The notes under the pieces: model-generated | Databases searched by the model: none | Told to the model about the DNA's origin: nothing | Seen by the model: the letters and a program-made list of their open reading frames with translations, nothing else | Shown: piece by piece, positions 26,372 through 36,644 of the stretch | Layout: every line of letters begins with the position of its first letter | Position numbering within the stretch: the first letter of the stretch is position 1 | Made by a program: the position numbers and the translations under genes | Source of the DNA: Akkermansiaceae bacterium | GTDB taxonomy: Bacteria > Verrucomicrobiota > Verrucomicrobiia > Verrucomicrobiales > Akkermansiaceae | NCBI GenBank assembly: GCA_013001695.1 | Contig: JABDMC010000262.1 | Coordinates: 1 to 36,644 of the forward strand | Length of the DNA stretch: 36,644 nt | Direction: 5' to 3'

Positions 26372-29300
26372 TTACTTGAGCACCGAGCCGTCAGGCGAGA
26401 TGAGCGCCAGGAAGACGGCGAGTTCGGAGCGTTCGATCCAGTTCGGGTCGGTGGCGGCGTAGAAGTCGATGGCGGCCTTCATCTCGGCGCGGCCCGCGGG
26501 GCTCATGGTCCCGTGGCAGAAGATCAGGTTGAGATGATCGAGGAGGGCGTCGGTATCGACCGAGAGGCTCCGCACCGGTCCGAGTTGGAGGCGAAACTCG
26601 GGGGTGACCGCGGGGTTCCCGTAGTGGAAACCGCCCTGGATGAAGCTCCACATCCGGTTCGGGAGGGAGGTCGCGGTGAGGGCGTTCATGATCTGGAACT
26701 CGGGGCTGAGAAGCCCGAGGTCGCGCACCTCCCCGGGGCGGCTGTAGCCCGGTTCGTAGAAGTTGAACACGGAGGGCGACTCGTTGGGGTACTCGAGGAA
26801 GTCGCTGAAGACGTCCTGCTTGCGCGGCGCCCAAAACTGGATTCCGGTGAGGTCGTGCAGCGCCGGGGTGGCGGCCCCGGCATCGAAGGCGCGGGCCATG
26901 GCCACGGTGCGCAGCATCGGCCCCTTCAGGCGGCCGGCCCGGGGGTCGAGCGCCGCCGCCAAATCCCGCGCTTCCGGGTCCATGAGAATCGCCTTCACGG
27001 TGGCGGCGAGGTTTCCCCGCACTCCGGTCCCGTCATCCGCGAAGACCCCGGCAACGCGCTCCACGTAGGCCGGTGACGGGTTCGATGTCACGAGATGCTG
27101 GATGAGGTTCATCGAGATGAACGGCGGGCAGTTCGGGTGGTTGATGAGGATGTCCACCGTGTCGGAGACGTCGTCGAGGCCGGTGCGGCCCGGATCGTCG
27201 TCGAAGGCCGGCAGGGACGTCCCGAGGAAGACCTTTTCGGGCGCACCATAGACCGAGGCCGAGACGGCGTCGCCGGTGTCGTGCCGGGATTCGATCATCC
27301 GCATCGGGGCTGCGGCAAAGGCGGCCTGCCCGCCGATCCCGGTCTGGAGGTCCAGCCCCGTGAAGACCCGCGCGACTTGCTGGATGTCGTCGTTGGTGTA
27401 GGTCTCGACCGGGTTCCCGTGGACGTCGAGGACCGGCGTGCCGTCCATGTTGAGCTCGAGCAGGCCGATCGAGAAGAGCTGCATGATCTCCCGGGCGAAG
27501 TTCTCGTCGGGCATGCGGTTGATGGTCGGGTCGGCCTTCTGGTTCCCGAGGTGGCTCAGCCACCAGCCCATCCACGGGTGCACCGCGATGTCGTAGAGGA
27601 GGTCCCGGTAGTTCCCGAGGCTGTGCTCGAGGACGGTGTCGTACCAGTCGGCCGCGGCGATCCCGTAGCTGTTGCAGCGCGGCCCGATGACGACAATCTG
27701 GCTGAGGGCCCACGCCACGCGCTGCCGCAACTCATCGTCGGCGAAGAGCGCCTGGCGCATCCAGACGGTGTTCACGTTCTCGCGGTACATCGCGAAGTTG
27801 GACTGCTCCGTGACGTAGTGCGGGAAGACGTCGTAGTCCGGGGCATTGGAGTCCGCGACCATGCGGGCCGCCAGCACATCAATGTAGGTCCGCAGGTAGT
27901 TCGGCGGCGCGGCGAGTTGCTGGTCGATCCAGGTCTCGTAGCAGTTCGGCCCGAGGGCGCGCAGGGCGGCGATCTTCTGCGGGGTGGGACCGAAGGTGGC
28001 CTGGGCGAGGAAGCGGCTGGCCTGCTCCTCGGACGGCACCCCGGGAAGGGTCGAGCCAAACATGCCGCCGTGGGGGCTGCCGCCCTTCATCAGCGTGGCG
28101 AACTGCAGGAGGTCGCCGTCGTCCGACGCGGAGCGCACGCTGGCTGCGTCGCCGGCGTTCCAGCCGAGGTAAGCCTCGAGTTCGTCCTCGAGCCCGTCGA
28201 GGTCGGTGTCGGGCGCCGGGAGGAGCGCGGCGCGCACGAAGGCCCGGCCCCCGGCCGGCAGGTCACCGCGGGGAATGACCGCGGTGGTGACCGGGCCGGT
28301 GGCGGTCAGGGCGCTTCCGAAGGGACTCCAGTCGGCAAGGTCATCGCCCGCCTCCAGCATGTAGCTCTTGCCCACCTCGGAGGTGAACGAAAACTCGAAG
28401 AAGTCCGGCGCGCTCTCGACGAAACCCAGGCCCCTCAACACCGAAGCGCGGTCGAACGGATCGGTTCCGGCGAAGGCCTCCTCCAGGTTGGTCGCGCCGT
28501 CCCCGTCGGAATCGGTCCCGGGCGGCAGGCTGGAGAGGCCCGGAAAACGGAGTTCCGCGAGGTCCGGAATCCCGTTGCCATTGAGGTCGGCGGAGCCGAA
28601 GACGGCGGGCGGAATCTGGTAGAATTCCACGCTCAGCGGCAGCATCCGGTCGTTGAAGTCCGGTCCTTCGCTGCCGGTGGAGGTCGTATTGATCGTGAGG
28701 GTCCCGGCGAACACCCCGCCGGTGCCGCTGGCGGCCGTGATCTCGATGGAAACCCTGTCCCCGTCCTCGAGGAGCGGCGGGTTGCCGGTGTTCCCCGGGT
28801 CGTAGGTGACTGCGAGGCCGCTGAAGACGCCCCCCGCGCTGGCGCCGTCGAAGGTGATGGTCTCGTTCCCGGAGGCGCTGTCGTTCACGAAGGTCACGGT
28901 GCGGGTCGCGGTGGTGCCCACGATGGTGCCAAAGGCGAAATCGGGGTCGGGAGAGGCCACGTCGACCTTGAGGATGGGGTCGGCACGCTTCGGGAAAAAC
29001 TGCACCTCGCCGAGTCCGGCGAAACTGCCGCTGCCGTGGGTCGAATTGACGTCGATGGCGATGTAGCGGGCGTTGATGCCGGCGAGGCTGATGTTGTCCG
29101 GTGCCTGCAAGGCCCCGTTCGTCGGGCCGAGCGTGAAGTTCCGGCTGCCCAGAAGCGTCCAGCCGGACGAATCGAATGCCGTGTAGTTGTTGTCGCTGTT
29201 GCCGCCGAACGAATCCGACCGGTAGTAGATGTCGGCCTGGTCGACGCCGCGGTTGTTGTTGGCGCCGGTGGAGACGCCGAAGTTGAAGACGTTCATGGAG

Positions 29301-29605
29301 GCCAGTTCGACGACCGATCCGAGGTCGAAGGCGATCCAGTGGTCCCCCACCCCGGGCAGGGGCGAACGGGCATCCGCCAGCCAGCACCAGTTCTGCCCGA
29401 ACTGGTTCTCGCCCCCCTGGTGCCTCCACAGGGCCGGATCGTCAGGGTCGGCCGGGGAATTGAGGCCCGTTCCATCCACGGCGTGCAGCGGGGGACGCCC
29501 GTCGAGGTCGCTGCTGGACGCGATGGCGGTGACACCGCTCAGCGGCGCCGCGGAGGCGTGCAGGGGAAGCACCAGGACGGGAAGGAATCGGGGGAATCTT
29601 CTCAT
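26372..29605 (-). CDS. DUF1800 family secreted protein with discoidin-like and beta-sandwich N-terminal domains
   Basis: A 1077-aa protein. After a signal peptide (about 1-18), residues about 20-205 form a discoidin (F5/8 type C)-like domain. About 208-329 is a beta-sandwich (DPILKVD to LPLSVEFY). About 335-390 holds calcium-binding-type repeats (DLNGNGIPD, DSDGDGATN), then a linker strand region. DUF1800 starts near 530 (FLAQATFGPTPQKI) and fills the rest. DUF1800 has no established enzymatic function that I know. A longer frame begins upstream, but ATG 29605 (MRRFPRFLPVLVLPL) gives a standard signal peptide. The first two domains closely resemble those of the giant protein encoded divergently. 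Confidence 0.93.
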   Translation of the reverse strand: MRRFPRFLPVLVLPLHASAAPLSGVTAIASSSDLDGRPPLHAVDGTGLNSPADPDDPALWRHQGGENQFGQNWCWLADARSPLPGVGDHWIAFDLGSVVELASMNVFNFGVSTGANNNRGVDQADIYYRSDSFGGNSDNNYTAFDSSGWTLLGSRNFTLGPTNGALQAPDNISLAGINARYIAIDVNSTHGSGSFAGLGEVQFFPKRADPILKVDVASPDPDFAFGTIVGTTATRTVTFVNDSASGNETITFDGASAGGVFSGLAVTYDPGNTGNPPLLEDGDRVSIEITAASGTGGVFAGTLTINTTSTGSEGPDFNDRMLPLSVEFYQIPPAVFGSADLNGNGIPDLAELRFPGLSSLPPGTDSDGDGATNLEEAFAGTDPFDRASVLRGLGFVESAPDFFEFSFTSEVGKSYMLEAGDDLADWSPFGSALTATGPVTTAVIPRGDLPAGGRAFVRAALLPAPDTDLDGLEDELEAYLGWNAGDAASVRSASDDGDLLQFATLMKGGSPHGGMFGSTLPGVPSEEQASRFLAQATFGPTPQKIAALRALGPNCYETWIDQQLAAPPNYLRTYIDVLAARMVADSNAPDYDVFPHYVTEQSNFAMYRENVNTVWMRQALFADDELRQRVAWALSQIVVIGPRCNSYGIAAADWYDTVLEHSLGNYRDLLYDIAVHPWMGWWLSHLGNQKADPTINRMPDENFAREIMQLFSIGLLELNMDGTPVLDVHGNPVETYTNDDIQQVARVFTGLDLQTGIGGQAAFAAAPMRMIESRHDTGDAVSASVYGAPEKVFLGTSLPAFDDDPGRTGLDDVSDTVDILINHPNCPPFISMNLIQHLVTSNPSPAYVERVAGVFADDGTGVRGNLAATVKAILMDPEARDLAAALDPRAGRLKGPMLRTVAMARAFDAGAATPALHDLTGIQFWAPRKQDVFSDFLEYPNESPSVFNFYEPGYSRPGEVRDLGLLSPEFQIMNALTATSLPNRMWSFIQGGFHYGNPAVTPEFRLQLGPVRSLSVDTDALLDHLNLIFCHGTMSPAGRAEMKAAIDFYAATDPNWIERSELAVFLALISPDGSVLK

Positions 29606-30110: not shown

Positions 30111-30968
30111 ATGAAGACCAAAGGCTCACGATTCATCCTTCTCGCTCACGCTGCGATCCCCGGGCTGATGGCCGGAGCGCTGGACGCCGCGCTCATCGCC
30201 TACGAGGACTTCGACTATGGAAGCGGCGTGAATCTCACCACCGAGACGGCCAACAATGGTAGCGGGTGGACGGCGGCCTGGGCGACGACGGGGCCCTCCG
30301 GGCTGACGACGAGCGGCACCGGCCAGAGCCTCTGGTTCGGCCAGAATCCGCCCTTGATCACCGACGGCAGCACACACGTTATTTCCAGCACGAACCGGGG
30401 CAATGAACGGGATTGGAACACCACGGTGGACCTGGCCACGGAGAACCTCTATTTCACGGCATTGGTGCATGTGTTTTCCGGCGCCTCGGTGGTCGACATG
30501 CGGGCCGAGTTCTGGGATGGCGCGGGCGCGAGCGGCAACATGCGCGGGAACGTCGGCATTACCGATGGCGATCTCTATGTCCATGCCTCCACGGGCGGCT
30601 ACAATCCCGCCGGCGGTGATTCTGCAGCGGGCGTGCTCGCCGGCAATACGACCTACCTCCTCGCCATGAAGCGAACGACCTCCGGCATCTCAGCCTCGCT
30701 GATCACCGCCGACGGCAACAGCAGCACCTTCGCGTCCGAGCCGGGGGTGTGGCAGGTGAACGATCCGGGTGCCTCCGGCGTCGACCTGACCTCGATCCGC
30801 CTCATCGCGAACGGCACCGACGGAGGCATTCGCCTCGACGAACTGCGCATCGCCACCGACTGGGACAGCGCCGTCAGCGGCCTCGTGATCCCCGAGCCCG
30901 GCTCCGCGGCCCTGCTCGGCCTCGGCGGCCTGCTGCTCGCTTCGCGGCGGAGGAGGGCCGCGGCCTGA
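30111..30968 (+). CDS. PEP-CTERM sorted extracellular protein with LamG-like fold
   Basis: A 285-aa protein. A signal peptide (about 1-29) is followed by YEDFDYGSG, the usual start of LamG-like PEP-CTERM proteins. The body is beta-rich with few charged residues and ends RLDELRIATDWDSAV. The sorting tail VIPEPGSAALLGLGGLLLAS is followed by RRRRAAA. PEP-CTERM proteins are cut by an exosortase and exported with exopolysaccharide; no exosortase gene lies in this window. The body resembles the LamG-like module repeated in the next gene (DNVRLSDLKESEAFDVI there). The gap to that gene is 141 bp. Confidence 0.92.
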   Translation: MKTKGSRFILLAHAAIPGLMAGALDAALIAYEDFDYGSGVNLTTETANNGSGWTAAWATTGPSGLTTSGTGQSLWFGQNPPLITDGSTHVISSTNRGNERDWNTTVDLATENLYFTALVHVFSGASVVDMRAEFWDGAGASGNMRGNVGITDGDLYVHASTGGYNPAGGDSAAGVLAGNTTYLLAMKRTTSGISASLITADGNSSTFASEPGVWQVNDPGASGVDLTSIRLIANGTDGGIRLDELRIATDWDSAVSGLVIPEPGSAALLGLGGLLLASRRRRAAA

Positions 30969-31109: not shown

Positions 31110-34100
31110 ATGAAGACGAAACCCACTCGCACCCGCGGCACGACCTTGCTCGCCGTACTTGGCCTCGCCCTGGGCGTGCACGCCCAGACCCTCATTCCCG
31201 CCACGTCCATGACGGCCGAGGCGCGGCACAACTACGCCTCCCGCGAACCCGGACGGGTCCTGAACGGAGTCAGCAACGGAGGCGGCTTCACCGCGGACGG
31301 CTCCATCACGACCGCCGCCCTGCCCGCTGACTATCGTCTGGACTCCACCGTCGGCGGGACGGGGACCTTCGGGCAGGTGACGAACTGGACCGGCAACAGC
31401 GCCACCGCCCAGTGGTTCCGGGTGGATCTCGGGGCCGACTACTCCCTCGATTCGATGGCCTTCTTCAATCTCTGCGTCAATGCCGCCGGGGCCGCCAGCA
31501 CCCTGAACCGCGGTGTGCTGCAGGCCGACATCTACTACCGCAGCGCGGCGGCGGGGCCGGGCGGCAACTCCAACGGCGACGGGGTCGACTTTGACGCCAC
31601 GGGCTGGACGCTCCTGGGGACCGCCGGCACCCAGATGTTCACCAAGGTCCCCGCCCCGGGCGACACCTCCATCGCGCCGGACGTCGTTTCGTTCGGCGGG
31701 GTGACGGCGCGCTACGTGGCCTTCGACATCAACTCGGCGCACAGCGGCAGCAACGTCGGCATCGCGGAGCTCCTGTTCTTCGAGAGTTCCGGGGTCCCGG
31801 ACCCGATCCTGAACGTGGCCCCGGGCAGCCCGGATCCGGACTACGACTTCGGCAACGTCTTCGGCGGGGCCCCCGCCCCCACCCGGACCGTCACCCTCGT
31901 GAACGACAGTGTGGGCGGCAGCGCCACCATCAATATTGACAGCGTCACCATCACCGATAACGGCGGCGGGGTCTTCGGGGGCCTGACGGTGACCTATGAT
32001 GCCGGCAACACCGGCACCCCTCCCCTTCTTGAGAACGGCGACACGGTCTCCATCGAGATCGCGGCCAGCCCGGTCGGATCGGGAAGCGCCACCGGCAATC
32101 TCGAGATCCTGACGACCTCCGCGGGGGGCACCGTGACGGCCGACTTCAACGACAAGAACTTCCCGCTCTCCGCCGAGGTCATTCCGGCCGGCGAGAAACT
32201 GAACCCGAACCCCTTCATGGAATCCGGGCTCGCCGACTGGGACAACGTCTCGGGCGATGGAGAGGCCGTCCCGGTTTCGCCCGGGTTGGCCGGCGGATCC
32301 AGCGGCATGGCCCGGGTCCGCGGGATTGGAGACGCCTCGAGCACCGGCCCGGGCGATCTCGAGCACCCGACGTCCCACATGCAGTCAACCGGCGTCCCGG
32401 ACGGGGCGCCCAACTGGCAGCTCTCCGCCTTCTTCACCCCCATCGACGCCTCGACCTTCGGCGGCTACTCGGAAGAAGCGACCGGGGCGACGGCCGCCGA
32501 TGGGGCCTTCTCGGACCGCACCTTCCAGCTGGTGGTGCTCTCGGCCGACACGGGCCGGCCCTTCCCGGGTTTCGACGACGCCCAGGCGGCGGGCACCCTG
32601 ATCAACATCGCCTACATGCCCGACGGAGTGCAGGACAACCTCGGTGTGCCAGACTTCTATGTCTTCAACGGGGACATTGCCGGGACGGCCTTTGGGGGAA
32701 CCTGGATCCCGACCGGGATCGGCGCCATCGAGGGATCGATTGACAATGACGGCGACCTATCCACCGCCAACGGGGTCGGCGACGGCCTCCTCGATCCCTC
32801 CGTGGATCCCAATGACGTCGTCAACGCCTACCGGATCCTCGTGACCGGGACCGGCTTCGGCTCCCCCGGCGCCAGCTACGACATCACCGTCACGAAGGTG
32901 TCCGGTCCCGACACCTTTGTGAGCGGCACCGCCACGGGTCTCACGGCCTTCCAGGGAGTCAGTGGCGACAGTGGCACCCCGGCGGGCTATTCCTTCATCA
33001 CCTCCGATGTCAGCAGCGATCTGGACACGGGATCCAACCAGGGCGATAGCGGCGTCCCCGGCCTGGCGACCCCCTTCTGGGTCGATGACGTCTGCTTCTT
33101 CAACGTGGCGGGTCCCGACCCGTCCCTGACGGTGGCCAACAACCCGGGGCGCATCGCGGTGTGCAGCCCGGACACCACCGGGACGACCTCCTTCACGATC
33201 CGGAATGATGGGACCTCGAACAACCTCGAGATCGACTCCATCAGCTTCTCGGGGGCCACGGGCTTCAGCGTGAATTCCCCCGGCATTCCCTTCTCCGTCG
33301 CCGCGGGGGCGTCCGAGGAGATTACCATCGAGTGGGACAGCGCCGCGGCCGGGGATTCCCTGGAAACCGCGACCGTCACGGTGTCGGATTCGACCAACGG
33401 CCTTTCTTCCGACCTGCTCGTGAAGGGCGGACTCGCCTCCGGCGGCTCCGTGGTGCTCGACTACAATGACCACCTCTCCGGCACCTTGGCCCAGGCCGGG
33501 AATGCCGACACCGGCATCGGCTTCACGGAATCGCTGTGGAACAATGGGACCGGGACGCAGGTGGTGGTCGCCGGCGATCTCTCCACGACCACCGTTCCCG
33601 GTTACTCGGTTCCCGCCACCGGCACCCCGCAGAGCCAATCGACCAACAATACGGCGGCCCGCCAGCAGGAGCGCCAGATCGACCTCGGCAGCGGCATCAC
33701 GCCGGTGTGGTTCTCCTTCCTCGCGCAGAAGCCCACCTCGGGCGGGCGAGTCGGCGTCGGCTTCAACACCAACACCACCAATGCCACCGATCCCCGGCTG
33801 CTCTGGATCGGCGACACCCTCGCCTACCGGGTGGGCGTCGCCAACGTGGCCACCGTTTCGCTCACCTCGACGTCCGACACGCAGCTGATCGTGGGCCGCA
33901 TCAGCATCAATGACGGGACCGGGGGCGAGGACCGCATCGAGGTCTGGGTGAACCCGGGCGACATGTCGTCCGTCGCCGCCCTCGGGGCCCCCGACATCAA
34001 TTACGCCGGGACCAACTCCCTCGGCAGCGGCCTGACGCGGCTCAATCCCTCCGCCTACGGCGCCACCGGGGGGGACGCTCCCATCCTCGACAACGTCCGT

Positions 34101-36644
34101 CTCAGCGACCTGAAGGAGTCGGAGGCTTTCGACGTCATCCGGACCGGGAGTGTCCCGCCGGCATTGAACGTCCTGGACGGCCCGGATCGGATCGTGGTCT
34201 GCAGTCCGGACACCAGCGGCACGGCCACCGTCACCATCCGGAACGAGGGGAACACCACGAGCCTGAACGTCGACTCGATCAGCTTCGCCGGCGGCACCGG
34301 CTTCAGCATCACCTCGCCCGGCATCCCCTTCGCGGTGGCGCCGCGGGCCACCGAGACGATCACCATCGAGTGGGACAGCGCCACCGCCGGCGGCACCGAC
34401 GAGGGCGCCACCATGACGATCTCGGACTCCGGCAACGCCCTTTCGACGGATCTCGAGGTCCGGGGCGGGTTCGGGTTCGTCGGCGGCTCGGTGGTTCTCG
34501 ACTACAACGACCACGTCCCCGGTGACATGGCGCAGGCCGCCAATTCCGGAACGGGCGTCGGCTTCACGGAGGCCCTCTGGAACCCGGACACCGGCACGCA
34601 GGTGGTGGTGGCGGGCGACATCAGCACGACGACCGTCACGGGCTATTCGGTCCCGGCAAGCGGCACGGCCCAGAGCCAGTCGACCACCACCGGGTCGGCC
34701 CTCGCGCAGGAGCGCCAGGTCAGCCTCGGCGGCGGCGTCAACCCGGTGTGGTTCTCCTTCATCGCCACCAAGCCCACCTCCGGGGGCCGGGTGGGGTTCG
34801 GCCTCAACACCGTCGGGACGACCTCCTCCGACCCGCGCCTCCTGTGGCTCAACAACAGCCTCCAGTGGCGGGCCAACGGGAATTTCCCGGCGACGCCCCT
34901 GAGCTCCACGTCCGACCCGACCGTGGTCGTGGGCCGCATCACCATCGACGTGGGGTCGGCGGGTGAAGACCGCATCGAACTCTGGGCGGGTCCCGCCGAC
35001 CTGTCGTCCATCGCCGCACTCGGGTCTCCCGATCTCGTCTACGAGGAAACCAACTCCCTGGGCAGCGGCATCAGCCGGATCAATCCCACCGTCTACGGTG
35101 GAGTTCCTGGCAACGAGCCGGGATTGGACAACCTGCGCTTCAGCGACCTGAAGGAGGACCTGGCCTTCGACGTGATCCGCACCGGGATCGTGCCGGTGGA
35201 GGATCCGCTCCTGGAAGTTGATGCCGGTGACAGCCCGGACTTCACCTTCGACAACATCTTCACGGCTTCGGGAAGCCGCACCATGACGTTCGTGAACAAC
35301 AGCGCGAGCGGGTCCGAGACCGTCACGATCAACAGCGTCTCCGTCACCTCGGACCCGGGCGGCGTCTTCGGGTCCCCGATCGTGACCTACAGCGGCACCA
35401 ACGTCCTCGGCGGCGGGGACACCGTGACGGTCGAGATCCCGGCCTCCTTCGCCGGTTCCGGGGCCTTCACGGGCGAACTCACCATCGACACCACCTCGAC
35501 CGGCCCCTTCGACCCCGACAACAACGACCAGGTCCTGCCGCTCAGCGTCGCCTTCTACATCGACGGGCAGAAGATCGCCGGCGGCGACATGGAGGGCGGC
35601 CTCGGCGATTTTGATGGCACCTCCGCGGCCATCGGTCCCGGCATCGCGCCCGGCTCGTCCGGAGGAGCCCGCGTGGCCGGCACCGGCGATCCCAGCGGAT
35701 CGGGCTCGGCGGAACTCTACCAGGCCGACAGCGTCCCCGACGGGGCGGACATGTTCGAGTTCACGGCCTACTTTTCGCCGATCGATACCACCCAGTGGTC
35801 GCTCTACACGGGATTCGATCCGAACGGCAGTATGGCTGATCGCAGCTTCCAGTGGGTTCTCTTCGGGGCGGACTCTCCGCAACCGGATGACCCCGATGGT
35901 GGTGGCGGGACCTTGGGATTCGACAGCACGGTGATGGCCAATGCCCTGATCAATATCGCCTACCTGCCCGACGGCGATTCCCTCGGCGGCACGCCCGGGT
36001 TCTACATCCATAACGGCAGCGTCTGGGGATACTCTGGCATCGGTGCCCTGCAGGGATCGGTCGACAACGGCGGTCCCGCCGGCGACGGGCTCCTCGATGC
36101 CTCCGTCGACCCGCTGGACATCATCAACGTCTACAAGCTCTCCGTGCGCGGCACCGGGTTTGGAACGGGCACGGCGTCCTACGACATCACGGTAACGAAA
36201 GTGTCCGGACCGGATTCCTTCACCAGCGCGACCGCTGCCGGGCTCACCGCCTTCAGCAACCTCAGTGGGAACACCAATACCCCGGCGGCCTACGGCTTCG
36301 CGACCTCCGACACGAGTTCGTCGGGTGCCTCGAGCACCTCCACTCCGTTCTGGGTCGACGACGTCTGCCTCCACGCCGGAGTGGCTCCCGATCCGCTCCT
36401 CACCGTCCTGCAGGCCCCGGGCGACATCATTGTCCTCGATCCGGACACGGATGGAACCACCACCCTCCTGGTGCGGAACGACGGAGGAAGCGCGAACCTC
36501 GATTTGAGTTCGCTGGACCTTACCGGGACCGGGTTCTCGCTGCTTTCCCCGAGCCTGCCGGTGACCTTGTCGCCCTTCGATACGCAGGCCCTCGTGCTGC
36601 GGTTCGACACCGCGGCGATCGCCCCGGAACTCGCGGCCATCACC
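31110..36644 (+). CDS. Giant secreted modular repeat protein, 3' end missing
   Basis: From ATG 31110 the frame has no stop codon to the window end: 1845 codons, incomplete. A signal peptide (MKTKPTRTRG, then LLAVLGLALGVHA) is followed by: discoidin-like domain (about 28-230); module A beta-sandwich (231-360); module B (361-669, ending PFWVDDVCF); C-D pairs at 670-1017 and 1018-1364; a second A (1365-1484); a second B (1485-1760); and the start of a third C (from 1761). C resembles choice-of-anchor D/ASH-type beta-sandwiches (IRNDG, EEITIEWDS), and D is LamG-like. No enzymatic motif was seen. An extracellular or cell-surface adhesive or structural role is inferred. The C-terminal anchor (PEP-CTERM, autotransporter or other) lies beyond the window. 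Confidence 0.9.
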   Translation, partial: MKTKPTRTRGTTLLAVLGLALGVHAQTLIPATSMTAEARHNYASREPGRVLNGVSNGGGFTADGSITTAALPADYRLDSTVGGTGTFGQVTNWTGNSATAQWFRVDLGADYSLDSMAFFNLCVNAAGAASTLNRGVLQADIYYRSAAAGPGGNSNGDGVDFDATGWTLLGTAGTQMFTKVPAPGDTSIAPDVVSFGGVTARYVAFDINSAHSGSNVGIAELLFFESSGVPDPILNVAPGSPDPDYDFGNVFGGAPAPTRTVTLVNDSVGGSATINIDSVTITDNGGGVFGGLTVTYDAGNTGTPPLLENGDTVSIEIAASPVGSGSATGNLEILTTSAGGTVTADFNDKNFPLSAEVIPAGEKLNPNPFMESGLADWDNVSGDGEAVPVSPGLAGGSSGMARVRGIGDASSTGPGDLEHPTSHMQSTGVPDGAPNWQLSAFFTPIDASTFGGYSEEATGATAADGAFSDRTFQLVVLSADTGRPFPGFDDAQAAGTLINIAYMPDGVQDNLGVPDFYVFNGDIAGTAFGGTWIPTGIGAIEGSIDNDGDLSTANGVGDGLLDPSVDPNDVVNAYRILVTGTGFGSPGASYDITVTKVSGPDTFVSGTATGLTAFQGVSGDSGTPAGYSFITSDVSSDLDTGSNQGDSGVPGLATPFWVDDVCFFNVAGPDPSLTVANNPGRIAVCSPDTTGTTSFTIRNDGTSNNLEIDSISFSGATGFSVNSPGIPFSVAAGASEEITIEWDSAAAGDSLETATVTVSDSTNGLSSDLLVKGGLASGGSVVLDYNDHLSGTLAQAGNADTGIGFTESLWNNGTGTQVVVAGDLSTTTVPGYSVPATGTPQSQSTNNTAARQQERQIDLGSGITPVWFSFLAQKPTSGGRVGVGFNTNTTNATDPRLLWIGDTLAYRVGVANVATVSLTSTSDTQLIVGRISINDGTGGEDRIEVWVNPGDMSSVAALGAPDINYAGTNSLGSGLTRLNPSAYGATGGDAPILDNVRLSDLKESEAFDVIRTGSVPPALNVLDGPDRIVVCSPDTSGTATVTIRNEGNTTSLNVDSISFAGGTGFSITSPGIPFAVAPRATETITIEWDSATAGGTDEGATMTISDSGNALSTDLEVRGGFGFVGGSVVLDYNDHVPGDMAQAANSGTGVGFTEALWNPDTGTQVVVAGDISTTTVTGYSVPASGTAQSQSTTTGSALAQERQVSLGGGVNPVWFSFIATKPTSGGRVGFGLNTVGTTSSDPRLLWLNNSLQWRANGNFPATPLSSTSDPTVVVGRITIDVGSAGEDRIELWAGPADLSSIAALGSPDLVYEETNSLGSGISRINPTVYGGVPGNEPGLDNLRFSDLKEDLAFDVIRTGIVPVEDPLLEVDAGDSPDFTFDNIFTASGSRTMTFVNNSASGSETVTINSVSVTSDPGGVFGSPIVTYSGTNVLGGGDTVTVEIPASFAGSGAFTGELTIDTTSTGPFDPDNNDQVLPLSVAFYIDGQKIAGGDMEGGLGDFDGTSAAIGPGIAPGSSGGARVAGTGDPSGSGSAELYQADSVPDGADMFEFTAYFSPIDTTQWSLYTGFDPNGSMADRSFQWVLFGADSPQPDDPDGGGGTLGFDSTVMANALINIAYLPDGDSLGGTPGFYIHNGSVWGYSGIGALQGSVDNGGPAGDGLLDASVDPLDIINVYKLSVRGTGFGTGTASYDITVTKVSGPDSFTSATAAGLTAFSNLSGNTNTPAAYGFATSDTSSSGASSTSTPFWVDDVCLHAGVAPDPLLTVLQAPGDIIVLDPDTDGTTTLLVRNDGGSANLDLSSLDLTGTGFSLLSPSLPVTLSPFDTQALVLRFDTAAIAPELAAIT
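31800..33116 (+). repeat. First A-B module pair of the giant protein
   Basis: Module A (DPILNVAP to FPLSAEV) and module B (to PFWVDDVCFF) recur at 35202-36389. Matching landmarks include NDSVGG/NNSASG, GGVFG, SYDITVTKVSGPD, and GDGLLDPSVDP/GDGLLDASVDP. A also matches residues 208-329 of the DUF1800 protein. Confidence 0.75.
33117..35201 (+). repeat. Two tandem C-D modules of the giant protein
   Basis: The pair at 33117-34160 repeats at 34161-35201. The same landmark, VCSPDT, recurs 1038 bp (346 residues) apart at 33162 and 34200. ITIEWDSA, GSVVLDYNDH and GFTE...LWN are nearly identical in both, as are NSLGSG and FDVIRTG. Confidence 0.85.
35202..36389 (+). repeat. Second A-B module pair of the giant protein
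   Basis: A second copy of A (DPLLEVDAGD to LPLSVAFY) and B (GGDMEGG to PFWVDDVCLH). Its A copy is closer in wording to the DUF1800 protein (TSTGPFDPDNND, LPLSVAFY) than the first copy is. Confidence 0.75.

Follow-up and report, generated by a model that had tools for sequence, protein, structure and literature searches.

A large exported modular protein of the choice-of-anchor-D type in an Akkermansiaceae bacterium and its C-terminal tail

The window, by which we mean the whole 36,644-nucleotide stretch analyzed, is the entire contig C342 of a 399-contig genome of an Akkermansiaceae bacterium. ORF analysis and translation showed a forward frame of 1845 codons without a stop at 31110-36644, which exits the window at its edge and encodes residues 1-1845 of a protein totalling about 2174, the remainder being located on contig C26 (L005:77-1066). 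A PEP-CTERM protein is encoded on the same strand at 30111-30968 (+), 141 bases upstream, and its gene may be co-transcribed with the large gene. On the other strand, 26372-29605 (-) encodes a DUF1800 protein whose discoidin and A modules are 40% and 55% identical to those of the large protein, the 40% applying to its N-terminus, and which differs in the TSP3-like repeat and DUF1800 domain that follow them; a DUF1501 gene comes next after it.

Open length is weak evidence for the gene, since in this DNA of 67% GC the antisense strand, too, has a long open frame, of 1,295 codons, over 32757-36644. GC content by codon position was 0.60/0.54/0.89 in the forward frame and 0.89/0.54/0.59, its mirror image, in the antisense frame. 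Moreover, GC3 of the forward frame was 0.83-0.94 in each 600-base block. The internal frameshift that the sequence-only reading had named as a possible refutation is thus not in evidence, and its 5535-base frame is coding-type throughout. GC per codon position and homology settle that 31110-36644 is a real gene, and a chance open frame is ruled out by GC3 and by homologues in other genomes. By eye, a start at 31110 is consistent with a signal peptide. The joined protein is acidic, rich in Gly, Ser, Thr and Asp, with 0.7% lysine; such an acidic, lysine-poor composition is usual for exported proteins.

Self-comparison of the 1845-residue translation gave the order signal peptide, discoidin-like (F5/8), A, B, C, D, C, D, A, B, C, and the order read earlier from the letters was correct. 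The signal peptide (MKTKPTRTRGTTLLAVLGLALGVHAQ, read from the translation by eye) covers 31110-31187 (+, as for all modules; residues 1-26), and is followed by the discoidin / F5-8 type C-like domain at 31188-31799 (27-230), A1 at 31800-32177 (231-356), B1, of about 300 residues, at 32178-33113 (357-668), C1 at 33114-33443 (669-778), D1, of about 235 residues, at 33444-34151 (779-1014), and C2 at 34152-34478 (1015-1123). Self-comparison located the further copies D2 at 34479-35189 (1124-1360), A2 at 35190-35507 (1361-1466), B2 at 35508-36365 (1467-1752) and C3 at 36366-36644 (from 1753), which is interrupted by the contig end. Protein identity was 48% between A1 and A2, 46% between B1 and B2, 63% between C1 and C2, 43% between C1 and C3, and 63% between D1 and D2, with codon position 3 differing more than positions 1 and 2. 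This range of identity and the position-3-heavy divergence indicate old repeats and exclude assembly duplication as their origin.

Judged from sequence profiles, A and C belong to the choice-of-anchor-D/ASH Ig-like domains. PF15780 (ASH) scored 33.9 bits against a cut-off of 27 (whole-protein E 3.7e-8), with its best stretch in C2; PF22544 (HYDIN_VesB) was barely over its cut-off in C1 (25.6 versus 25.5 bits, E 1.5e-5); and NCBIfam NF012200, at 37.7 bits, was under its curated cut-off of 45, matching C1 and, weakly, A1 at 31830-32126. The discoidin-like region matched PF22633 (E 1.2e-4, 23.0 bits) and PF00754 (E 3.1e-4, 21.3 bits) under the Pfam cut-offs of 27.8 and 28.2. The predicted fold of C1 resembled the HYDIN PapD-like domain 2e6j (TM 0.74 by target length), and other PapD-like domains were similar. 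Two AlphaFold models, with alignment rows from the window and L018 only, had mean pLDDT of 38 and 45 and were poor outside C; of the modules for which fold prediction had been proposed, C gave a PapD/HYDIN-like fold, the fold search being informative for C alone. No enzyme domain was found by Pfam in this protein and its relatives, and the earlier description of a secreted, non-enzymatic modular protein made of binding or structural folds is backed by the signal peptide, the ASH matches and this Pfam result.

The B modules and the E module on C26, which is a diverged B, have N-x-x-F/M-E at the start and W-V-D-D-V at the end, and are probably all-beta. Neither B/E nor D had a family match over cut-off, and PDB profile searches with both gave nothing credible. 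Among 19 B/E members, one matched CBM_4_9 (best E 0.011, under the Pfam cut-off), and two B/E members matched NTTRR-F1 (best E 9.8e-6, under cut-off); CBM6 structures were present among the fold matches of the B/E model, which carry little weight as the model is low-confidence. D modules, with relatives of D1 in G022 and G048, had no Pfam match and no PDB sequence match; they are possibly LamG-like, the fold being a guess, and their predicted model is too poor to judge a LamG / concanavalin-like fold. Elsewhere in the same genome, a 241-codon frame (L087:2699-3421, -) opens with a signal-like sequence and carries a single E-type module ahead of a PEP-CTERM-like tail. Three adjoining same-strand frames of genome G022 (L083:2737-9522, -) have one E-type module each: one has a PEP-CTERM-like tail, one is D-C-E-Z, where Z is the C-terminal tail described below, and one has CotH and lamin-tail (LTD) domains, which the B/E module precedes.

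The last 76 bases of the window (36569-36644, +) are identical at 74 of 76 positions, and in the same frame, to the first 76 of C26, and these two sites are the only full-length matches genome-wide. The two mismatches mean that this is not an exact assembly-graph overlap, and strain variation is their likeliest explanation. Taken alone, the overlap may leave room for another copy of the repeat at the junction. All eight relatives that we followed to the stop, each from the same bacterial family (G042, G048, G232, G204, G213, G217, G179 and G022) end C-E-Z-stop, as does the joined gene, which backs the join and argues against extra repeats. C26 contributes E, a Z tail of about 80 residues and then the stop that extension past 36644 was meant to find, about 329 residues beyond the window edge, to give a product of about 2174 residues with a computed mass of 218 kDa after signal removal and a computed pI of 4.05. 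Therefore, the expectation that the larger unit continues in a much longer protein did not hold: on C26 the gene stops once a single B-like module and a tail have been added, and this, with the common ending of the eight relatives, rules out endless repetition beyond the edge. A peptidyl-prolyl isomerase-like frame lies 3' of the gene on C26, as do frames that we take to be PlsY and GpsA, the names being assigned by eye.

Module combinations among the relatives vary on the N-terminal side and are constant on the C-terminal side, the shortest arrangement being D-C-E-Z (678 codons). The cultured Haloferula rosea KCTC 22201 (NZ_JAENII010000002.1; L018:5855-8953, the G042 gene) has A-B-C-E-Z with the same tail and 47-49% identity over A-C, whereas its 1033-codon frame has another N-terminal region and lacks the D modules and the second A-B. 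The relatives in G048 and G232 share modules in the order D-C-B-C-E-Z up to the stop but do not begin with a discoidin or A module, and in G232 the frame extends N-terminally by about 1,050 additional codons without a Pfam match. The gene is patchily distributed: none of the 14 genomes searched in the same genus had a match, compared with six of 98 near genomes and, for the B/E profile, 19 of 195 genomes of the family (own genome counted in both). Viral origin was rejected, with no relative found among viral contigs. The suggestion that the protein is not yet described was too strong, as A and C fall in a catalogued family and there are relatives in H. rosea and elsewhere in the bacterial family; the literature collection searched had no paper joining choice-of-anchor with Verrucomicrobia or with PEP-CTERM.

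The Z tail (L005:821-1063) terminates in SYRVESP, and the known C-terminal sorting signal expected beyond the window was not there: the C26 terminus has none of the recognised anchors (PEP-CTERM, LPXTG or type IX tail), and Pfam gave no match in the Z-containing C26 segment. A profile built from the last ~75 residues of five sequences matched 42 places in the genome at E <= 10. Among the best 30 of these 42, about 25 are C-terminal in their frame and five are internal; most of the C-terminal matches leave no more than 13 residues before the stop, in three others the frame continues for 24-33 residues after a partial or full match, and the tails mostly finish in F/Y-Y-R-V-like motifs. Of 59 genomes from the phylum, 17 had the tail at E <= 0.001. 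It had no NCBIfam match, and its weak Fn3-like match among PDB profiles (E 0.022) suggests a small beta-sandwich. A type IX tail was rejected, as PF18962 (Por_Secre_tail) had no match in the genome. The genome also has 16 PEP-CTERM and four exosortase matches, so two kinds of C-terminus coexist in it; unlike PEP-CTERM / exosortase surface proteins, the reported protein has a Z tail.

We are about half persuaded that the protein is an exported non-enzymatic adhesin or glycan-binding scaffold. This reading draws on the signal peptide, module order, ASH matches, PapD/HYDIN-like fold of C, weak F5/8 match and lack of an enzyme domain; on the B/E motifs with their CBM_4_9 and NTTRR-F1 matches, the exported-type composition and the patchy distribution; and on the occurrence of B/E alone before a PEP-CTERM-like tail (L087) and before CotH/LTD (G022). 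The signal peptide would export the ~2174-residue protein from the cytoplasm. Ligand binding would fall to the discoidin-like, B, D and E modules, the likeliest ligands being glycans, either from the matrix of the cell itself or from a substrate. The Ig-like A and C, by their fold and position, would be rigid spacers between these modules, and the Z tail would stand in for PEP-CTERM in export or surface retention, placing the protein presumably at the surface. In effect, the protein would adhere to an extracellular polysaccharide matrix or organise one. Against ligand binding, the B/E carbohydrate-binding matches are under every cut-off, D has none, and the models are poor outside C.

A purely structural surface or sheath protein, in which Ig-like and beta modules pack into a fibre or coat without a specific glycan ligand, seems to us rather unlikely: the recognised domains are all Ig-like or discoidin-like with no enzyme, and the long alternating C-D-C-D stretch would suit it, but the free shuffling of modules among relatives, down to D-C-E-Z, and the absence of the gene from the rest of the genus would both be odd for a required coat and are what one more often sees in accessory binding proteins. 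Non-catalytic substrate capture with an adjoining polysaccharide-degrading or DUF1800/DUF1501 system we regard as improbable. The DUF1800 gene, two genes off on the other strand, has the same discoidin and A modules at 43-55% identity, and one paper notes that DUF1501 and DUF1800 genes move as a pair and share loci with bacterial chitin synthases (PMC5122149), but no DUF1800 or DUF1501 homologue occurs in the examined DNA flanking the relatives, and no glycosidase or transporter was seen near the gene. For the DUF1800/DUF1501 context mentioned in the sequence-only reading, a functional link is thus unsupported beyond the modules shared with the DUF1800 protein. A contact-dependent weapon or predatory giant protein, the interpretation given to giant extracellular proteins of other PVC lineages (PMC12057145), is disfavoured and hardly credible here, with no toxin or lytic domain, a C-terminus that is a common tail, and 2174 residues, far under the size of those giants.

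The protein itself is an ordinary exported modular example of the choice-of-anchor-D type, to which other members of the bacterial family have shorter relatives. Alone it matters little, being one more exported modular protein. Potentially more useful is a tail without an NCBIfam model that forms the end of about 25 of the 30 frames matching it best in one genome and that 17 of 59 phylum genomes contain. From its position, Z may have a sorting role, and if so it would aid prediction of the proteins that these bacteria locate extracellularly. A speculative proposal, which we think will probably not hold, is that Verrucomicrobiota use Z beside PEP-CTERM as an uncatalogued C-terminal signal for export or surface retention, and that B/E is an undescribed glycan-binding family accompanying both.

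Known choice-of-anchor D proteins (NF012200; ASH, PF15780; HYDIN_VesB, PF22544) are likewise exported, with repeated Ig-like ASH domains among other modules, whereas the B, D, E and Z modules here fall outside that family. In the same genome, choice-of-anchor-D matches at C142:23977-24255 and C147:270-941 lie inside open frames of 4,133 and 3,419 codons, both exceeding the reported protein.
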